Part shown: piece after piece, positions 4,718-48,763 of the stretch
How the letters are laid out: each line of letters opens with the position of its first letter
Numbering within the stretch: the stretch's first letter is position 1
DNA from: an uncultured SAR86 cluster bacterium
GTDB lineage: Bacteria > Pseudomonadota > Gammaproteobacteria > Magnimaribacterales > D2472
Assembly (NCBI GenBank): GCA_902623685.1
Contig: CACNUQ010000003.1
Location: 60,357 to 124,356 of the forward strand
Direction of reading: 5' to 3'
DNA length: 64,000 bases
Program-made: the position numbers and the translations under genes
Notes under the pieces: model-generated
Told to the model about the DNA's origin: nothing
Database searches by the model: none
The model's input: only the letters and a program-made list of their open reading frames with translations

Positions 4718-5605
4718 TTAATTTTTTTTGTTTGAACTATTTACAAGCTCTTCAGATGAGACGATTTTAAAAGGATCAATGTCCTTGCCGAATAATTTTT
4801 TTGGAGATACTGTTTCAAGCTTCCCTTCAGTATCAGTTGGATCAGTAAAAAATCCAAGTACATAGCCTCCTTGAGAATAACCTATTAAGTCTCTTAATTC
4901 AGGAGACAAATCTTTTGCAATTGATGGAGGGCATGATAGGTATTGATTCTCTTCTTGCCTTAACCAATTTGGCGCATAGTGCAGAAAAACACCTAGTCTA
5001 TTTTCTGAGGTTTGATTCGCGCCTCCTCCATGCATAACAGAACCAGTATAGATAAATACTGATCCAGCAGTCATTTCAGCATTTTCAATTTCTTCTTCTA
5101 AAGGTGTTCTATTTTTATCCCATTTATGAGATCCAGGTACAACTTGGGTTGCTCCATTTTCTTTTGTGAAATCTGTAATGGCCCAAACAGTAGATAACTG
5201 TGTTTCAATTTTTCTGGGTACATAGCCGCCCCAAACACCCCTGTCTCTATGTAGGATTTGAGCAGTTTCGTTTGGACCAATCTGAATTGCAGATGTGAAA
5301 TGAAGCTGATAACCATCACAGTGAGGTTCTAGAAATTTTTTTGACAAAGAATTTATTGTTGGATCAAGGGCAAGCTCGCGACATTTTGGCGATCTAGCTA
5401 TTAATGCGCCAACTCTTTTAGTTTGAAATCCAGTGAATTCATTATCACCCTCAATGTCATTATTGAGGTAGGGCTGGAGTTCATTTTTAATTTGAATTAG
5501 GTCATCCTCAGATAAGACATTATCAATCACGACTGCCGCATCTCGGTCAATAATTTCTAAAATAGTATCTAAGTCCGCATCTGCATTTACATGTTGAATA
5601 CTCAT
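4718..5605 (-). CDS. Phytanoyl-CoA dioxygenase family protein
   Basis: LHRDRGVWGG and GATQVVPGSHKWD motifs and a late His-containing segment, typical of PhyH. Confidence 0.9.
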   Translation of the reverse strand: MSIQHVNADADLDTILEIIDRDAAVVIDNVLSEDDLIQIKNELQPYLNNDIEGDNEFTGFQTKRVGALIARSPKCRELALDPTINSLSKKFLEPHCDGYQLHFTSAIQIGPNETAQILHRDRGVWGGYVPRKIETQLSTVWAITDFTKENGATQVVPGSHKWDKNRTPLEEEIENAEMTAGSVFIYTGSVMHGGGANQTSENRLGVFLHYAPNWLRQEENQYLSCPPSIAKDLSPELRDLIGYSQGGYVLGFFTDPTDTEGKLETVSPKKLFGKDIDPFKIVSSEELVNSSNKKN

Positions 5606-5700
5606 ACTTTCAGTTTAGGTTAAATTTAAAAATCTGTAAAAATTTTTTTTAGTAAGAATTTATATTCTGGGTAACTATTTTCCACCAAGCGCAGTTCAGT

Positions 5701-5706
5701 TATAAT
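5701..5706 (+). promoter_or_regulatory. Putative -10 box of the tRNA-Phe gene
   Basis: Perfect TATAAT 15 bp upstream of the tRNA 5' end; the -35 is weak. Confidence 0.4.
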
Positions 5707-5721
5707 TCTTCATCCTATATC

Positions 5722-5797
5722 GCCCAGATAGCTCAGTCGGTAGAGCAAAGGACTGAAAATCCTTGTGTCGGTGGTTCGATTCCACCTCTGGGCACCA
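5722..5797 (+). tRNA. tRNA-Phe (anticodon GAA), CCA encoded
   Basis: Cloverleaf gcccaga...tctgggcacca, anticodon loop ctGAAaa, T-loop ggttcgattcc. Confidence 0.97.
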
Positions 5798-5798
5798 T
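5752..5798 (+). repeat. att-like direct repeat, copy 1 (3' part of tRNA-Phe)
   Basis: 47-bp sequence actgaaaatccttgtgtcggtggttcgattccacctctgggcaccat, identical at 6450-6496. Confidence 0.93.
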
Positions 5799-5827
5799 TC
5801 TTACAGGGTTTCTCAAAATTTAAGTTC

Positions 5828-5895
5828 TAACACACATTAACACACTGCTTTCTTTGAGATTTAGTGTGTTAGATTTAACACACTTTTTAACACAT
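5828..5895. repeat. Cluster of TTAACACAC(T) direct and inverted iterons beside the att site
   Basis: taacacac / attaacacact / agtgtgtta (inverted) / ttaacacact / ttaacacat within ~70 bp of the tRNA end. Confidence 0.65.
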
Positions 5896-5922
5896 AATGA
5901 AAAAATACCGCATAATAAATAC

Positions 5923-6441
5923 ATGCTAAAAAAACTTTCATTAATATTTTTTGTTTTCTTATCAACATCAACTTTGTCTGAGGAAAGGATTGATGATCAT
6001 ATAGAATGTTCTGCTTTATATACTTTCCTTAGTCTCGTAGGACCAATTTCTTCTACAAAAACACAACTTTTATATAATGCCGCAGATTTCTGGATTGAAG
6101 CAGAAATGCTTAATGCTCAAAAACATAATTTTGAGACGTCTAAAGAAAATTTAAATGCTATTGCAAAAAACAAAAGAAAACTTTTAAAAGATTTTGAAAC
6201 TATCTTTGACAATGGTTCACTTTTTAAAATTCAAAATGATGTCTCTTATGAATGTGGGATGCCTCTGCCTGGAGAATATACTCCAGAGGATATTAAATGT
6301 TTTGAGCAATCAATGAAAAAAGTTTCAACATATCTAGAAGAGAGTGGCATTAACAAACGAGTAGGAATGTGTGATGCTCTGTCAAAAACTTTTTTGTATT
6401 CTGAAGTTAGAGATGAGATTGTTAAAAAATTCAGAAAATAA
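5923..6441 (+). CDS. Hypothetical secreted protein, cargo of the tRNA-Phe element
   Basis: ORF with N-terminal signal peptide MLKKLSLIFFVFLSTSTLSE (track ORF begins at a less likely TTG at 5854); Cys residues in the predicted mature protein; no family recognised. Confidence 0.6.
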   Translation: MLKKLSLIFFVFLSTSTLSEERIDDHIECSALYTFLSLVGPISSTKTQLLYNAADFWIEAEMLNAQKHNFETSKENLNAIAKNKRKLLKDFETIFDNGSLFKIQNDVSYECGMPLPGEYTPEDIKCFEQSMKKVSTYLEESGINKRVGMCDALSKTFLYSEVRDEIVKKFRK

Positions 6442-6449
6442 TTAAAAGC

Positions 6450-6496
6450 ACTGAAAATCCTTGTGTCGGTGGTTCGATTCCACCTCTGGGCACCAT
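6450..6496 (+). repeat. att-like direct repeat, copy 2 (displaced tRNA-Phe 3' fragment)
   Basis: 47-bp perfect match to 5752-5798 with no tRNA 5' half. Confidence 0.93.
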
Positions 6497-6515
6497 GTTA
6501 TAAGATAATCATAAC

Positions 6516-8867
6516 TTGGATAAATTTAAAAAAATTTCGTTTTTCCTTTCACTTATCTTATTTATCAGCTGTAGCTCAGAAGATAAAAATTGGTATCCTT
6601 TTCCTAACTCATTCTTTGGTCAAACCTATACAGCAGGCCCAATTGCTTTAACAAGTAATTTAAATCAAAAAAACATTTGGCAAAATATAAACAAGTTAAA
6701 TACAAGCCTAGCAAGGATGTCATACATTATGCAGCTAGGATCGCCTGAAGTTAATATCGCATGGTTTTTTCAAGATGGAGCTTGGCCAGATAAACCAAAT
6801 TTTCAATTTCAAAAATTAAATCCAAATTATCAAGAGTCTGAAACTAGCAGGCAAATAAATTTAAATGGTTATACCTATGATCGGATAAGTAAGAAAAATC
6901 TTTTGTCATCAAAAGTCTTTGAAAATAAATTAAATATAGGAAATGCTTCTTATCAAATATTGCTTATAACTGATTTAGAACATACATCTCCAAGCATTTT
7001 GAAGAAAATTCTTGCCCTTGAAAATGCAGGGTTAAAAGTGATTTTTATTGGTGATTTTCCTAAACGCGCAACAGGATTATCTAATTTTGAAAATAGAGAC
7101 ATAGAAGTCATCAGATATATAGAAAAGATTTCTAAGGTTGTATACCAAATAAATGATTCAAATAATCTGACTAGTATTTTAAAGGATCTAAATATATATC
7201 CATTAATAAATTTATTGGATAGGGATGCAAATTACTTTAGATCTGCTATTAGATCGTGTGGGGAACATAAAATTATTTACTTTTTTAATGACTCATATCA
7301 ATCAAGTGAAAGAAATTTTCGTTTAGATGATTATTTTAAAGGCATAAAGATTCTTGATCCATATGACGGAGTCATAAAGGAATTTTCTAATAAAAAATTA
7401 GATCAAAAAATAACAATTTCTTTAGAGGGCGGTAAATCAAAAATTTTAATTCTGAGTCAAGAAATAAATTTAAATAGCGAACATTGTTTTCAAATTAATG
7501 AATGGATCAATCCAGACAAAAAGTTCTTTCCAATTCTAAGATGGTGGTGGCCAGGAAATGCAGTGGAAAAACCACAGATTCAAAAAGAACTAAAAAAATT
7601 TAAACAAGCTAAGTTTTCTTCAATTGAGTTACAAACATTGACAATTGGAATGCCAAAAAAATATTTAATTCAAAGTGAAAATAAAATCTATCAGGTTGGA
7701 GAAAAGCCCTTTTTTGAGAATCTAAAATATCTATTTTCAGAAGCGAGTACCTTAAAATTAAGTTTAGATCTCACTCTTGGAAGTGGTTGGTCGAGCGGAG
7801 GACCATTCATTAAAGATTTTCCGGCGCAGCAACTAGTAAAATCAGAGTTAGAAATTAGCGGCCCATATAATGGGAAAATAAAACCACCGGAAATTCAAGA
7901 ACCTTTCTACATAAATAAAACTAACTTCATTGTAAATAAAACTATAGGAAAGTTTGATGAAGAAACCGAATTAATGAGAGTCATTTTGGCAAAAGTTGAA
8001 CAATCAACAAAAAAAGATATGTTGAGTGAGTTTAGAGATGTCACTGATTTTTTTGATGGTTTTGAGCTTAATGTAGATATCCCAAAAGGCAAATATAAAT
8101 TGTTTTTTATTTATCAGAATAATGTCTCTCATAATACTCTGGGTTCTGCTTATAAAGGATCCTTGGATGAATCTTTAGTATTAGATCATTTAAATAAAGG
8201 AGGCGTACAGGAATATATTGAGAAGCTTGGAAATCATTGGATAGAGCAAATAAAGCCCTATAAGCCTAGAAACTTTTTTATTGACAGTTTTGAGTTGATT
8301 GGCGAGCTGCCATGGTCACACAAGTTTTTTAAAACCTTTGAGGAGATGCATGGCTATAGCATTGCTCCATATCTGCCTTTAATTTTTAAAAAGAACGGAG
8401 AATCGAAATACTTATATGCAATATTTGGCGAAGAATTTGTATACAAGTCAGAACATATGTTAAGCGAAAGAGTATACGAGGACTATCTGAATACAAGAGA
8501 GCAGCTTTTTATGACTGAGTTTCTTTTACCAATTAAAAACTGGACAAGCTCCTTAAATATTAGATTACGGCTTCAAGCACATGGTGGATATGGAAATTAT
8601 CTTGATGCATATGCCATTGCAGATATTCCTGAGAGCGAGGGTCTTTTTGCCGGAGGAAGTTTTGATTTCTTAAAATTGGCATCTTCAGCAGGCAATATTG
8701 CTAATAGAAAAATTGTAAGCTCCGAGTCATTCATAAAAATAGATTTTAATTACAATAGATTAAAACTTGATGATTATGAAAGGTTGGCTGGCAATGCATT
8801 TGCGGCAGGAATCAATCAGATAGTTTTTCACGGATATCCATATGATTTCAGCTTCTTAGAGAATTAA
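6516..8867 (+). CDS. GH106-like (alpha-L-rhamnosidase family) lipoprotein with apparently permuted domain order
   Basis: TTG start, lipoprotein-like signal (ISFFLSLILFISC); RWWWPGNAV, GSGWSSGGPF, FFIDSFEL, QAHGGYGNYLDAYAIADIPESEG and AFAAGINQIVFHGYPY motifs of GH106. Confidence 0.75.
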   Translation: MDKFKKISFFLSLILFISCSSEDKNWYPFPNSFFGQTYTAGPIALTSNLNQKNIWQNINKLNTSLARMSYIMQLGSPEVNIAWFFQDGAWPDKPNFQFQKLNPNYQESETSRQINLNGYTYDRISKKNLLSSKVFENKLNIGNASYQILLITDLEHTSPSILKKILALENAGLKVIFIGDFPKRATGLSNFENRDIEVIRYIEKISKVVYQINDSNNLTSILKDLNIYPLINLLDRDANYFRSAIRSCGEHKIIYFFNDSYQSSERNFRLDDYFKGIKILDPYDGVIKEFSNKKLDQKITISLEGGKSKILILSQEINLNSEHCFQINEWINPDKKFFPILRWWWPGNAVEKPQIQKELKKFKQAKFSSIELQTLTIGMPKKYLIQSENKIYQVGEKPFFENLKYLFSEASTLKLSLDLTLGSGWSSGGPFIKDFPAQQLVKSELEISGPYNGKIKPPEIQEPFYINKTNFIVNKTIGKFDEETELMRVILAKVEQSTKKDMLSEFRDVTDFFDGFELNVDIPKGKYKLFFIYQNNVSHNTLGSAYKGSLDESLVLDHLNKGGVQEYIEKLGNHWIEQIKPYKPRNFFIDSFELIGELPWSHKFFKTFEEMHGYSIAPYLPLIFKKNGESKYLYAIFGEEFVYKSEHMLSERVYEDYLNTREQLFMTEFLLPIKNWTSSLNIRLRLQAHGGYGNYLDAYAIADIPESEGLFAGGSFDFLKLASSAGNIANRKIVSSESFIKIDFNYNRLKLDDYERLAGNAFAAGINQIVFHGYPYDFSFLEN

Positions 8868-8957
8868 TCTTTCAAATATCCCATCAATTCATAGTCTTTA
8901 CTTTGATTCTTTAAAATAAAAAGTTAAATTAAGAGTTATGAAAAACAATAAATTTCT

Positions 8958-9722
8958 ATGAAACCAGTTTGTTTAGTTTTGGGAGCTGGCGCAGGCATTG
9001 GAGGAACTGTTGCAAAAAAGTTTGCCAAAGAAGGCTTTCATTCATGTTTGTGCAGAAGGTCTGATCAAAAAGGTTTAGATAAGATTGTTTCTGATATAGA
9101 GCAGGAAGGCGGATCAGCAACGGGATATTTAATCAACGCAATTGAAGATAATGTCTTGGAAGAATTAATTCTTGAGATTGAAAAAGACATTGGTCCCATA
9201 GAAGTGCTTGTATACAATCTTGGCGCGCAAACAGGAATGAAGCTACTCAATGAAACATCTTTAAAAGAGTTTGAATGGGGCTGGAGAATGGCAGATCTTG
9301 GGCTTTTTAGAGTAGCAAAAGTTTTAATGCCAATTATGGAAGATAGAAGTTCAGGGACATTTCTTGTAACTTCGGCAACAGCAGCAATGAGAGGAAATAA
9401 AAATCAGCACTCTCATGCTGCAGCCATGGGTGGAAGAAGGCTGTTGTGTCAAACTCTAAATGCAGAGTTTGCACCTAAGGGGATTCATGTAGTACATATT
9501 GTCGTTGATGGCATGGTTGATGCTCCTGATACCTTGGGAAAAATGCTTGGAGAGGAGTTATTCCAACAATTACGTGAAACAAAAGGAATGGAGCATGATG
9601 GCTTGATTTTGCCAACAAGTGTTGCAGATACATATTACTATTTATCTCAGCAACACCGGTCTGCCTGGACACATGAAATTGATATCAGAGCATTCTCAGA
9701 CACAGCTTGGTGGAATTCTTAA
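8958..9722 (+). CDS. SDR family oxidoreductase
   Basis: N-terminal LGAGAGIGGTVAKKFA nucleotide-binding motif, SDR fold. Confidence 0.88.
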   Translation: MKPVCLVLGAGAGIGGTVAKKFAKEGFHSCLCRRSDQKGLDKIVSDIEQEGGSATGYLINAIEDNVLEELILEIEKDIGPIEVLVYNLGAQTGMKLLNETSLKEFEWGWRMADLGLFRVAKVLMPIMEDRSSGTFLVTSATAAMRGNKNQHSHAAAMGGRRLLCQTLNAEFAPKGIHVVHIVVDGMVDAPDTLGKMLGEELFQQLRETKGMEHDGLILPTSVADTYYYLSQQHRSAWTHEIDIRAFSDTAWWNS

Positions 9723-34707: not shown

Positions 34708-36111
34708 ATGACAAATAAATTTTTTTTACCTTCTCTACTTTTTATCTTAGTAAGTTGCTCTGAAAGTTTTGATATTGATGTTTCATTTGGATCATCAGAT
34801 TCTGTCTATCAAGGAATTGATAATGCATTCGAGTCAACATATATCCCAATGTATTCGCAACCAGTTCTTTTTAGGTCAGCTAACATTTACGATGGTCTTG
34901 GTGGTGAATTCTTAGACTATGATCTGCTTCTTTCAGATGGAGTGATTAAGGAAATTAGTAAATCTATTTCAGCTCCAGGAGTCTTTGTTATAGATGCAAC
35001 TGATAAGTGGATCACTCCAGGCATCATTGATATTCACTCGCACATGGGAGTTTATTCTGCCCCGGGAGTATCTACAAGTTCTGATGGGAATGAAGCAACC
35101 TCTCCAGTAACTGCCGAGGTTTGGGCAGAGCATTCACTGTGGACTCAAGATCCTCAATTTGCTTTAGCACTCAAGGGAGGGGTGACTACTTTTCACGTTT
35201 TACCTGGATCTGCGAATTTATTTGGGGGCAGAGGCGCAACTTTTAAAAATATTTCCCGGAATACCATTCAGGCCATGAAATTTCCTGGCGCACCACATTC
35301 GTTAAAGATGGCTTGTGGCGAGAATCCAAAAAGGGTTTATGGTAATCGCAGACAATCTCCCTCAACAAGAATGGGAAATATGGCAGGTTATAGAAGTGCA
35401 TGGATAGATGCAGTTGAATACGCTGACAGAATGAATGAAACTAATGAAGATCGTCGGCCAAAAAGAGATTTAGCTTTAGACACTTTGATGGGCGTCTTAA
35501 ACGGTGAAATTTTAGTTCAAAATCATTGTTATAGAGCTGATGAGATGGCTATGATGATTGAACTATCAAAAGAATTTGATTATAAAATTACTGCTTTTCA
35601 TCATGCTGTTGAAGCTTATAAAATAGCAGATCTTTTAGCAGATGAAGGAATTTGTGCAGCATTGTGGGCTGACTGGTGGGGCTTCAAGCATGAAGCATAT
35701 GATATGGTGCAGGCGAATGTTGCGATTGTTGATCAAGCCCGTAATGGAACCGGTTGTGCAATTGTGCACTCTGATGACCCAGTTGGAATTCAGCATCTCA
35801 ATGAAGAAGCAGCCAAGGCTATGGCTGCAGGCAATAGGGCTGGCTTCAATATTTCGAAAGCTCACGCAATGCGCTGGATAACAAGTAATCCTGCTAAAGC
35901 CGCTGGCATAATTGACCAAACAGGAAGCATTGAAATTGGTAAAGATGCTGACATAGTCCTCTGGTCTGGTGATCCTTTTAGCGTTTATTCAAAAGCTGAA
36001 AAAGTTTTAATTGACGGAGCTATGGCATTCGATATTAACGATCCTAAAATTCAACCAATTACTGATTTTGATTTAGGAATTATTCAACCACAAAAAAATA
36101 GGATTCAGTAA
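34708..36111 (+). CDS. Metal-dependent amidohydrolase, lipoprotein
   Basis: Lipobox-like FILVSC; HSH, QNHCYRADE, FHHAVEA and VHSDDP metal/catalytic motifs intact. Confidence 0.9.
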   Translation: MTNKFFLPSLLFILVSCSESFDIDVSFGSSDSVYQGIDNAFESTYIPMYSQPVLFRSANIYDGLGGEFLDYDLLLSDGVIKEISKSISAPGVFVIDATDKWITPGIIDIHSHMGVYSAPGVSTSSDGNEATSPVTAEVWAEHSLWTQDPQFALALKGGVTTFHVLPGSANLFGGRGATFKNISRNTIQAMKFPGAPHSLKMACGENPKRVYGNRRQSPSTRMGNMAGYRSAWIDAVEYADRMNETNEDRRPKRDLALDTLMGVLNGEILVQNHCYRADEMAMMIELSKEFDYKITAFHHAVEAYKIADLLADEGICAALWADWWGFKHEAYDMVQANVAIVDQARNGTGCAIVHSDDPVGIQHLNEEAAKAMAAGNRAGFNISKAHAMRWITSNPAKAAGIIDQTGSIEIGKDADIVLWSGDPFSVYSKAEKVLIDGAMAFDINDPKIQPITDFDLGIIQPQKNRIQ

Positions 36112-36112
36112 C

Positions 36113-37357
36113 ATGAAAGGATTCTCAAAAAACATATTGTTACTTTTTCTTACAGTTCATGTTTCATCAGAAACCATTTTGCTTAAGGGTGGTTTGGTTC
36201 ATTTAGGTAATGGAGAGCCTGCAACACCCAAAGATATTTTAATTTCCGATAATAGAATTGCTAGCGTTGGTAAGAACTTAATAATTGATGGCAACACAAG
36301 AGTTATTGAGGTGAATGGATTGCCTGTTACTCCTGGATTGATTTCCCCAATGAGTAATTTAGGGATAGTTGAAATTAACTCCTTAGATGTAACTCGTGAT
36401 GATGAATCAAACATTTTAAGCGCAGGTTTTAGTATTTTTAATGCGTTTAATCCAAATTCTACCGGTATTCCCTGGAATAGAAGCAATGGAGTTACCAGTG
36501 CGATTAGTACTCCAAGCACATCATTTTTTCCAATTTTTGGTCTTGGGTCTTATTTTGTTCTTGATGGGAGTCTTAAAGTCAAAGGTTCTAAAGATATAGC
36601 TATGTTTGGGAGATTAGGTAGCTCTAATGAGTCACGTGCAGAAACTTTAGCAATTCTCGAATCATTACTAGAAATAGGAAGATTATTAGAAAATTCAACC
36701 GTCGATGAAATTTTAAATATGACTTTGGCTGAAAAATTAGAACTTCAGTCAGCAGATATTATTGCTCTAGGCAAAGTTGTCAATGGCGGTATGCCATTTG
36801 TTTTAGAAACAAATAGAGCAGTGGACATCTTGCAAGCATTATCCATAAAGCAAAAGTATTCTTTGAATCTTGTCCTGGCAAGCGTAGAGGAAGCCCCGAT
36901 GGTCTTAGATGAACTCAAAGAAAGTAATACTCCGGTAATAATAGATCCTATGGATAACATTCCTAACTCATTTGATGAGCTTGGATCCAGCTTGAATCTT
37001 GGAAAGATCCTTGATGAGGCGGGCATTTCAATTATGTTCAGCACTCAAAGAAGTCATAACTATCACCTTATGAGACAAGGGTCAGGAAATGCAGTTGCTC
37101 ATGGAATGTCTTATGAAACTGCAATACAAGGTATGACAGATACAGTTGCGAAAACCTTCCAGCTTAATGACAGAGGATCAATTGAATCTGGGAAATTTGC
37201 AGATATTATTGTTTGGGATGGAGACCCACTAGAGCCTTCATCTTTTCCTAAAATTGTAATGATTGAGGGAGAACTGCAAGATTTAACTTCACGATCTTCT
37301 AAATTAACTGAAAGGTATACCAATAGTGAAGATAAGCCTTCTTCTTACAAGCATTAG
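36113..37357 (+). CDS. Amidohydrolase-fold protein, apparently lacking metal ligands
   Basis: Amidohydrolase fold motifs (NGLPVTPGLI, GKFADIIVWDGDPLEPSS) but SPMSN in place of HxH. Confidence 0.85.
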   Translation: MKGFSKNILLLFLTVHVSSETILLKGGLVHLGNGEPATPKDILISDNRIASVGKNLIIDGNTRVIEVNGLPVTPGLISPMSNLGIVEINSLDVTRDDESNILSAGFSIFNAFNPNSTGIPWNRSNGVTSAISTPSTSFFPIFGLGSYFVLDGSLKVKGSKDIAMFGRLGSSNESRAETLAILESLLEIGRLLENSTVDEILNMTLAEKLELQSADIIALGKVVNGGMPFVLETNRAVDILQALSIKQKYSLNLVLASVEEAPMVLDELKESNTPVIIDPMDNIPNSFDELGSSLNLGKILDEAGISIMFSTQRSHNYHLMRQGSGNAVAHGMSYETAIQGMTDTVAKTFQLNDRGSIESGKFADIIVWDGDPLEPSSFPKIVMIEGELQDLTSRSSKLTERYTNSEDKPSSYKH

Positions 37358-46444: not shown

Positions 46445-48763
46445 CTAAAGATCTAAAAGAGCATTAGAGAAGAACCTATTAATTTTCTTGTTTGCCCCAG
46501 TTAAACCCTTAAGTTCAAATTCAAAGTTAATTCTACTTTTGTTTTCAATTGAAATCATTTTTTCCCAATACATTTGATTAAATTCTTGAGGTTGAATGTT
46601 CAAAAAATTATATTTAGAAAGTCTTTTATCAGAGGCATATATTTTAAAAGCAAGACAACAGTTTTCAAAACCAAAGCCAAAATAAGTTTCTAAATTTTTT
46701 TTTGATACCAAATCTTTACTTATCCCACCAATAATTTTGTAACCCCGAGGCATAAGATGCTCCAAAGAAAACTCTGCATAATCTAATTCGTTTTTAAAAT
46801 TTAAAAGGGGAATATTTCTTTGAAAATTCCTTGATATCTTCATGCTCATATCTGAGCGATTAATTTTTAAACCCATTTCTCCATAATTGAGAGAATTTCT
46901 TTTTTGAGAATAATTCGCAGCAATATATGTTTTTAGACCACTGTTATCAAAAGATAACTTAGTACCAATTTGACTATCTTTTCCTAATGGGCTGCTCAAC
47001 ATAGCATTAATAACTTTGCTTGTTTCTAGCTCATTCTTTTTTACTAATTGAAGAGCAAATTTTTTATTATAATGTATTCTCTTATGCCAGCTCAATTTGG
47101 CAGCTAAAAATTCTGTATCAGGAACTCTATCTTTCCCATAAAAGTAATCATTAGAGAGCGCATTTAGATTGCCCGAATTACGTTGATGAAGATCAAAAAT
47201 AGGATCTACGCTTTGATCTTTGTAATCAGTTTTTTCATATACAAATTCAGGCATTATCAGTGAGATCCCTGAGGCCGATGATTTTTTCAACAATGATGAA
47301 ATATTTATTTTCACTGAGGGTATTGAAGATGACATAGACTGCGAGTTTCTTTTATTGAGATTATATTTTTTATGCAATGTTGATCCATTGATTGCAATAT
47401 CAAAATAATTAAAATCGTAAAGAATTTCAGCTCCGATTTCAGCTATCGATCTTTTTCCAGTTTCAGAAATAGAATTATTAATAAAAAATCCATTTGAACT
47501 TTTATTAACACGAAATGTTGCATAATCTAACTTAGTAAAATATGAAATTTTTGAGCTGTTCTTTAAGTATTCAATATGAATGCTGGGGCTTTTAATATAT
47601 CCATTATTAATAAATGGATTTAAGCTTTGATATCCTTCTCGACTGAAGCTTAAGGAAAGATTCTTTGATAGAAAATTCGCAGAAAATGTTTGATTTAGAT
47701 AATGATCTCTTTGATTAGCAATATTTGTGATGCTCGATGGCAAATCAAGCAATACCATAGAATCTGACGATTTTGACCAATCAATGTATGTTTTAAAGTT
47801 TAAGAATTGTCTATTTTCTTTGAATCGAAATGCCCATCTTTGATCTTTGTTATTAGCAAAGTCTTTCCTATATTCTTTATCCTTTGGAAAAAATATTAGA
47901 TCCACAAAATTTTCAGATTTAGTGTTTGTAAGATAGCGATAATTTGCTTCAATACCGCTACCTCTGTCATTAAGAATTCTTGGTGCAATGGTTATGTCTG
48001 ATTGATTAGATAATACCCAAAAGTAAGGTAAAAAAAGATCTAAGCCATCTGATGTGAGGTTAAGCTCCGGTTCCAAAAAACCGCTTAATCTTTTAGTTGT
48101 TGCAGGAAATGGTAGGTATGGAAGTGAAAGAATTTCTTTATTAAGAATTTTTAGCTTCACATCTTTAATGAGTCCACGACTTGTATTTTCATTAATATTT
48201 ATGCTCTCAGCTTCAATTTCCCAGCCCTGTGAATTATTATTGCAAGAAGTCAGAGTTGCATTCTTAAAGTTTAAATATTCTCCTAAATTTCCATCTAACG
48301 ACTCATAATTAATTAACAAGTTTCTTTCACTAAGGAAAGTTGTTCCATTATCAAGCTGAAGACGACCAGATTGCTTCTCTAAAGCACCAGATAAAAAATT
48401 AAAATAATTATTTGAGTGATAGATACTCCCATTTTTTATATCTTTAATTGAATTATGTTTTTGTAAAAAAGTCGCACTGTCTGCGTTTATTTTGCCATCA
48501 TTCAGACCAATCAAAACATTTCCGTCTAAATACATCTCTCCATTTGATTTAATATCCATCTTGCCGGCATTCAGCACATCAGATTCATCCTCATAAATTA
48601 ATAATGGATATTGAGGATAACTACAATTCTGAACACCGTTTTTATAATTTAAAGAGTTTGCTTCATCAAAAGCAAAAATATTTCCTGATACAGTGAAAAG
48701 AACTAAAAAAAGATATTTATATTTTCGCTTTATTAGTTTTAATTGTCTTTTATAAAATTTCAA
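46445..48763 (-). CDS. lptD: LPS assembly outer membrane protein LptD
   Basis: OstA-like N-terminal domain, LPYLPFP, long beta-barrel; synteny with surA. Confidence 0.92.
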   Translation of the reverse strand: MKFYKRQLKLIKRKYKYLFLVLFTVSGNIFAFDEANSLNYKNGVQNCSYPQYPLLIYEDESDVLNAGKMDIKSNGEMYLDGNVLIGLNDGKINADSATFLQKHNSIKDIKNGSIYHSNNYFNFLSGALEKQSGRLQLDNGTTFLSERNLLINYESLDGNLGEYLNFKNATLTSCNNNSQGWEIEAESININENTSRGLIKDVKLKILNKEILSLPYLPFPATTKRLSGFLEPELNLTSDGLDLFLPYFWVLSNQSDITIAPRILNDRGSGIEANYRYLTNTKSENFVDLIFFPKDKEYRKDFANNKDQRWAFRFKENRQFLNFKTYIDWSKSSDSMVLLDLPSSITNIANQRDHYLNQTFSANFLSKNLSLSFSREGYQSLNPFINNGYIKSPSIHIEYLKNSSKISYFTKLDYATFRVNKSSNGFFINNSISETGKRSIAEIGAEILYDFNYFDIAINGSTLHKKYNLNKRNSQSMSSSIPSVKINISSLLKKSSASGISLIMPEFVYEKTDYKDQSVDPIFDLHQRNSGNLNALSNDYFYGKDRVPDTEFLAAKLSWHKRIHYNKKFALQLVKKNELETSKVINAMLSSPLGKDSQIGTKLSFDNSGLKTYIAANYSQKRNSLNYGEMGLKINRSDMSMKISRNFQRNIPLLNFKNELDYAEFSLEHLMPRGYKIIGGISKDLVSKKNLETYFGFGFENCCLAFKIYASDKRLSKYNFLNIQPQEFNQMYWEKMISIENKSRINFEFELKGLTGANKKINRFFSNALLDL

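Follow-up and report, generated by a model that had tools for sequence, protein, structure and literature searches.

The question raised by this locus is whether one open reading frame (ORF) carries the two halves of a GH106 glycosidase in exchanged order and, if so, how this order arose. The ORF was located at positions 6516 to 8867 of the 64,000-nucleotide stretch of SAR86 DNA that was analysed (hereafter, the window). According to the ORF listing it starts with TTG and encodes 783 amino acids; family matches cover it as a permuted GH106 lipoprotein, and it and all its features described below lie on the plus strand. The preliminary description had quoted GH106 motifs and a lipoprotein-type start for this ORF, and all of them were present in the translation. 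The signal comprises residues 1 to 19 (6516–6572), as read from the sequence, and has a lipobox ending in FISC19. In the orthologue alignment Cys19 was invariant in all seven permuted proteins and was preceded by a hydrophobic stretch. The N-terminal signal and the invariant lipobox cysteine predict export of the protein as a lipoprotein.

The whole protein matched Pfam PF17132 (Glyco_hydro_106) with 97.8 bits against a cut-off of 29, and this was the only Pfam family that it matched convincingly. On the 743 positions of PF17132, residues 505–773 corresponded to positions 219–483 and residues 48–289 to positions 504–738. On the NCBIfam GH106 profile NF049897 (897 positions), residues 328–776 corresponded to positions 3–415 and residues 52–324 to positions 437–726. 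The N-terminal 335 and the C-terminal 455 residues were then scanned separately. The N-terminal piece alone matched PF17132 at 504–738 with an E value of 1.3e-9, and the C-terminal piece matched it at 218–483. On NF049897 the N-terminal piece matched 437–726 (E 1.2e-15) and the C-terminal piece 5–415 (E 3.9e-46). The two pieces lay in inverted order on the GH106 profiles with zero overlap, as the earlier proposal of swapped halves had anticipated. The same arrangement was seen in BLASTP with normal-order sphingomonad GH106 proteins (query 332–779 to subject 37–508; query 25–313 to subject 514–792) and in a profile-profile alignment (hhalign) of seven permuted against nine normal-order GH106 proteins, in which residues 329–779 aligned with columns 59–516 (E 7.6e-59) and residues 24–340 with columns 521–833 (E 2.3e-23). 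A HMMER search with a doubled profile added nothing further, and its match was spread across both profile copies.

A collinear alignment over the whole ORF is ruled out by the NF049897 match and the hhalign coordinates. An origin of the halves from different families is likewise ruled out, as both match GH106 profiles and both adjoin the same GH106 subgroup in trees. The N-terminal part of the protein thus matches a later region, and the C-terminal part an earlier region, of the same parent chain, which confirms at the level of sequence that the ORF encodes a GH106 member with a natural circular permutation. The usual GH106 domain order of barrel, GATase-like domain and C-terminal sandwich was not found: the order was inverted and the C-terminal sandwich was absent. 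The protein was classed as a permuted GH106 because CAZy families rest on sequence relatedness and not on domain order. With NF049897 it scored 202 bits, below the equivalog cut-off of 1300 bits, and it is therefore not an equivalog of BT_4145.

The first half, residues ~24–320, holds helix alpha8, the GATase-like domain and the first beta-sandwich, and the second half, residues ~329–779, holds the (beta/alpha)8 barrel. In the profile-profile alignment ~4 canonical columns were missing where the C- and N-termini of the permuted protein meet, and the column coordinates indicate that, apart from these columns, the two termini adjoin in the normal chain. A typical normal-order gene reads NQLVGHGWPY and then TPPGVREPGWAFYAASALNDHNPWY at this junction. 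The permuted chain begins after its signal with NWYPFPNSFFG and ends with HGYPYDFSFLEN, the new C-terminus (8829–8867, including the stop codon), which by comparison with the junction in normal-order relatives would be the cut loop after strand beta8. By these junction sequences the cut falls within the loop that connects strand beta8 of the barrel (HGYPY) to helix alpha8. The preliminary description had put the join exactly at HGYPY|WYPF; the loop after HGYPY was correct, and the alignments did not narrow the join to one exact residue.

Full-length normal-order GH106 proteins extend into a C-terminal GH2-like sandwich, with profile matches reaching to ~970 of 974. In the permuted proteins this sandwich was absent; the first one, behind the GATase-like domain, was retained, here at residues ~241–314. 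When the window and six 20-kb loci from relatives were scanned sensitively in all six frames, no remnant of either the C-terminal sandwich or a second barrel was detected. Judged from these sequences, the change is more than a pure permutation, since the C-terminal GH2-like sandwich was lost, a loss on which the earlier description was silent.

Structure prediction was carried out with AlphaFold2. With only the seven permuted sequences as input the model was poor (pLDDT 53, pTM 0.43). Addition of normal-order fragments gave a model with pLDDT 79.8 and pTM 0.86. The added rows were 14 barrel and 14 GATase-side fragments, separate and unpaired; they had been cut at the junction by the analyst, so that they help each half and carry no contact information between the halves. 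In this model a putative barrel helix, residues 55–72 (6678–6731), takes the position of alpha8 in chain order; in the alignment of normal-order GH106 proteins it stands after strand beta8. It is followed by the GATase-like domain (residues ~76–232, 6741–7211), which also has profile matches, by the first beta-sandwich (residues ~236–314, 7221–7457), seen in the model and in hhalign, and by a linker from the former C-terminal side to strand beta1 (residues 315–339, 7458–7532), assigned from the model and the profile gap. Strands beta1 to beta8 of the catalytic barrel span residues 340–771 (7533–8828) by profile matches and model, with a beta insert at ~438–536. The confident global fold is thus predicted to be an ordinary GH106 core whose helix alpha8 comes from the N-terminal end of the chain. 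In a Foldseek search the top three matches, by a wide margin, were the three GH106 crystal entries, with sequential TM-scores of 0.38–0.40, values that are expected because a sequential alignment can cover no more than one half. GH42 beta-galactosidases and GH167 were among the next best fold matches. In GH42 enzymes a GATase-like domain comes after the barrel; unlike the protein described here, GH42 and GH167 are not permuted, and they have no family match to it at the sequence level.

The permuted gene was found in seven of the 204 genomes of the order. Six of these, including the source genome, belong to one genus; the seventh, a single-contig genome, belongs to another genus, and its permuted protein has 50% identity. 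Five of the carriers were also recovered as separately named SAR86 isolate records in an independent scan. In the source genome the permuted gene is the sole GH106 locus. The source genome is a draft in 41 contigs, so a tandem gene pair might have been collapsed or shuffled during assembly. However, the same full-length order in one open frame occurs in the six other genomes, including the single-contig genome of the other genus, and the flanks are conserved within the genus. A collapsed tandem pair is excluded by the identical arrangement in six other assemblies, and an assembly artefact is extremely improbable.

The outer flanking genes were conserved within the genus, and the spacing around the permuted gene varied strongly. 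About 20 of the 27 genomes of this genus show no copy of the gene, and window positions 5605–8958, compared with the loci of relatives, form a variable spot between conserved outer flanks. Directly upstream of the permuted gene, on the same strand, lies an ORF of 195 amino acids (5854–6441, plus strand) with no Pfam match and no match in the 20-kb loci of relatives at E 1e-8, an orphan in this variable spot.

The search for other permuted members that had been proposed yielded these six further SAR86 genomes and none outside SAR86 in the taxa sampled, namely samples of the class, of the phylum, of one sphingomonad-type alphaproteobacterial family and of the family of genome G843, together with other phyla represented by plasmid records only. 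About 25 other GH106 proteins were inspected, and all were in normal order. The proposed dN/dS analysis was also run (Nei-Gojobori). Within the genus the ratio was 0.15–0.21 for the whole gene, ~0.20–0.31 for the N half and 0.09–0.15 for the C half; values against the distant genus were near saturation. The permuted gene is under purifying selection.

Trees were built separately for the two halves. In both, the permuted proteins formed one clade with support of 100, and this clade adjoined the same sphingomonad enzymes with moderate support (91 and 84). In the barrel tree the neighbouring group also included Hymenobacter and one further enzyme. A long stem, with 1.5–2.0 changes per site, leads to the permuted clade, which indicates that intermediates are unsampled or extinct. 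The matching placement of both half-trees speaks for a single event that involved one gene. A fusion between different GH106 paralogues, one giving its C-terminal part and the other its N-terminal part, would be compatible with the tandem glycosidase genes that stand side by side at some GH106 loci, with the two GH106 genes of a relative in the SAR86 order (G042) and with the faster evolution of the N half of the permuted gene. It is nevertheless improbable, as the separately built trees put both halves beside one and the same group of sphingomonad GH106 enzymes and the join in hhalign is nearly seamless and without overlap.

Permutation by duplication has been proposed for GH70 (PMC4919382). 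By analogy, the present order would have arisen most simply by duplication, in-frame fusion and trimming of the ends. The preliminary description had offered either a circular permutation or a fusion derived from tandem copies. The inverted coordinates and the half-trees support the permutation; the two origins are not fully separable, because permutation by duplication itself passes through a fusion of near-identical tandem copies. In a probable single origin in a SAR86 lineage, one GH106 gene would have been duplicated and fused in frame, and both ends trimmed. The (beta/alpha)8 barrel would thereby have been opened in its beta8-alpha8 loop. What had been the C-terminal side, with alpha8, the GATase-like domain and the first beta-sandwich, would have been placed first with a short linker to beta1, and the original C-terminal GH2-like sandwich would have been lost.

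In the GH106 enzyme BT_0986, E461 is the catalytic acid, E593 the base, and D458, S459, E538, E561 and E593 are metal ligands (PMC6828813). Alignment with BT_0986 gave as counterparts E593 for the acid, E737 for the base, and D590 and S591. Residues D590 to E593 form the DSFE motif (8283–8294), in which, by equivalence with BT_0986, E593 is the predicted general acid and D590 and S591 are predicted metal ligands. E737 (8724–8726) is the predicted general base from its equivalence to E593 of BT_0986 and from an alignment of 21 proteins, across which acid, base, D590 and S591 were invariant. E708 (8637–8639) is probably, though tentatively, the counterpart of E561, to judge from its alignment column. 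The position of E538 is occupied by Gln687, and most of the GH106 proteins aligned have Gln there.

The neighbouring genes encode a PhyH dioxygenase, an alpha/beta hydrolase, a FAD-binding protein, a short-chain dehydrogenase and housekeeping functions, and no sugar-utilisation cluster was seen among them. No L-rhamnose mutarotase (PF05336) was found in the genomes with the permuted gene, an absence that is weak evidence as several of these genomes are incomplete. It is conceivable that the protein is an inactive GH106 scaffold that has been retained as a lipoprotein with a binding or structural role, and the lost C-terminal sandwich, the lack of a sugar-utilisation cluster and the undetected mutarotase would fit this. 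We consider it unlikely, since the catalytic acid, the base and the metal ligands do not vary and selection constrains the barrel half more strongly than the other. On its conserved residues the permuted protein is predicted to be a functional glycosidase in lipoprotein form, with alpha-L-rhamnosidase as its probable activity. That it releases rhamnose is uncertain because neither a sugar-utilisation cluster nor an L-rhamnose mutarotase was found; a different deoxysugar may be its target, or it may trim glycans without the rhamnose serving as a nutrient.

One member of the order from another family, G042, has two normal-order GH106 genes, and PF05336 was found in this genome. The two genes and the L-rhamnose mutarotase lie within ~20 kb and probably form a genuine locus for rhamnose utilisation, a setting unlike that of the permuted gene. 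In the distant genus (G033, locus L034:8770–11887) the permuted gene abuts a PhzF-like gene; a PhzF-like gene lies ~5.7 kb upstream of the permuted gene in the window. Elsewhere in the window, an ORF of 772 amino acids between ordinary genes (46445–48763, minus strand) had no Pfam match at E 0.001, and two amidohydrolase-family genes are adjacent at 34708–37357 (plus strand).

Taken together, we regard it as highly likely that the protein is a natural GH106 circular permutant with a one-time duplication origin in SAR86 and a working exo-glycosidase. It would be exported as a lipoprotein and fold into the ordinary GH106 catalytic core with alpha8 from the N-terminus. It would act as a metal-assisted exo-glycosidase in which E593 serves as the acid and E737 as the base, most likely on alpha-L-rhamnosides or a similar deoxysugar, and its substrates would be oligosaccharides at the cell envelope.

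The GH106 alpha-L-rhamnosidases BT_0986 (PDB 5MQM) and RHA-P (PDB 6Q2F) and the sphingomonad GH106 enzymes of ~950 amino acids share with the permuted protein the barrel, the GATase-like domain, the first beta-sandwich and the catalytic acid and base. They differ in the opposite order of the halves and in the presence of the C-terminal GH2-like sandwich, and the permuted barrel has only ~20–30% identity to normal-order GH106 barrels. GH70 glucansucrases are permuted relatives of GH13, in which the barrel was opened between a strand and the following helix at beta3/alpha3 (PMC4919382). As in GH70, a glycosidase (beta/alpha)8 barrel is cut between strand and helix in the permuted GH106, here at beta8/alpha8. 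GH70, however, is unrelated in family and reaction and carries further domains that the permuted GH106 lacks. Both orders are now known within GH106, as they are in GH70 through GtfC-type members.

No published permuted GH106 was found in a literature search of open-licence papers, which does not prove that none exists. Papers mentioning rhamnosidase together with circular permutation (a Salmonella phage, a GH11 xylanase) were taken to be unrelated on the strength of their titles. In nature a protein chain is rarely rewired in this way. GH70 is the one classic natural permutation through a glycosidase catalytic barrel, and GH106 is an independent case in another family. Under standard annotation the permuted protein appears as two separate partial GH106 hits, so that similar enzymes may go unnoticed in ocean genomes. 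Since relatives in normal order and several diverged orthologues with the permutation are available, both the tolerance and the purpose of the cut are directly testable. As to purpose, only ~7 residues separate Cys19 from the opened beta8-alpha8 loop, which lies on the catalytic face, so that the active site would be turned towards the membrane or towards a transporter in it. In a normal-order lipoprotein GH106, by contrast, the anchor leads into beta1 at the bottom of the barrel and the active site points away. The lipid anchor is moved by the permutation, and this may be why the new order was retained, a suggestion we hold to be rather doubtful; if true, a circular permutation would here have served in nature to re-orient an enzyme at the surface.
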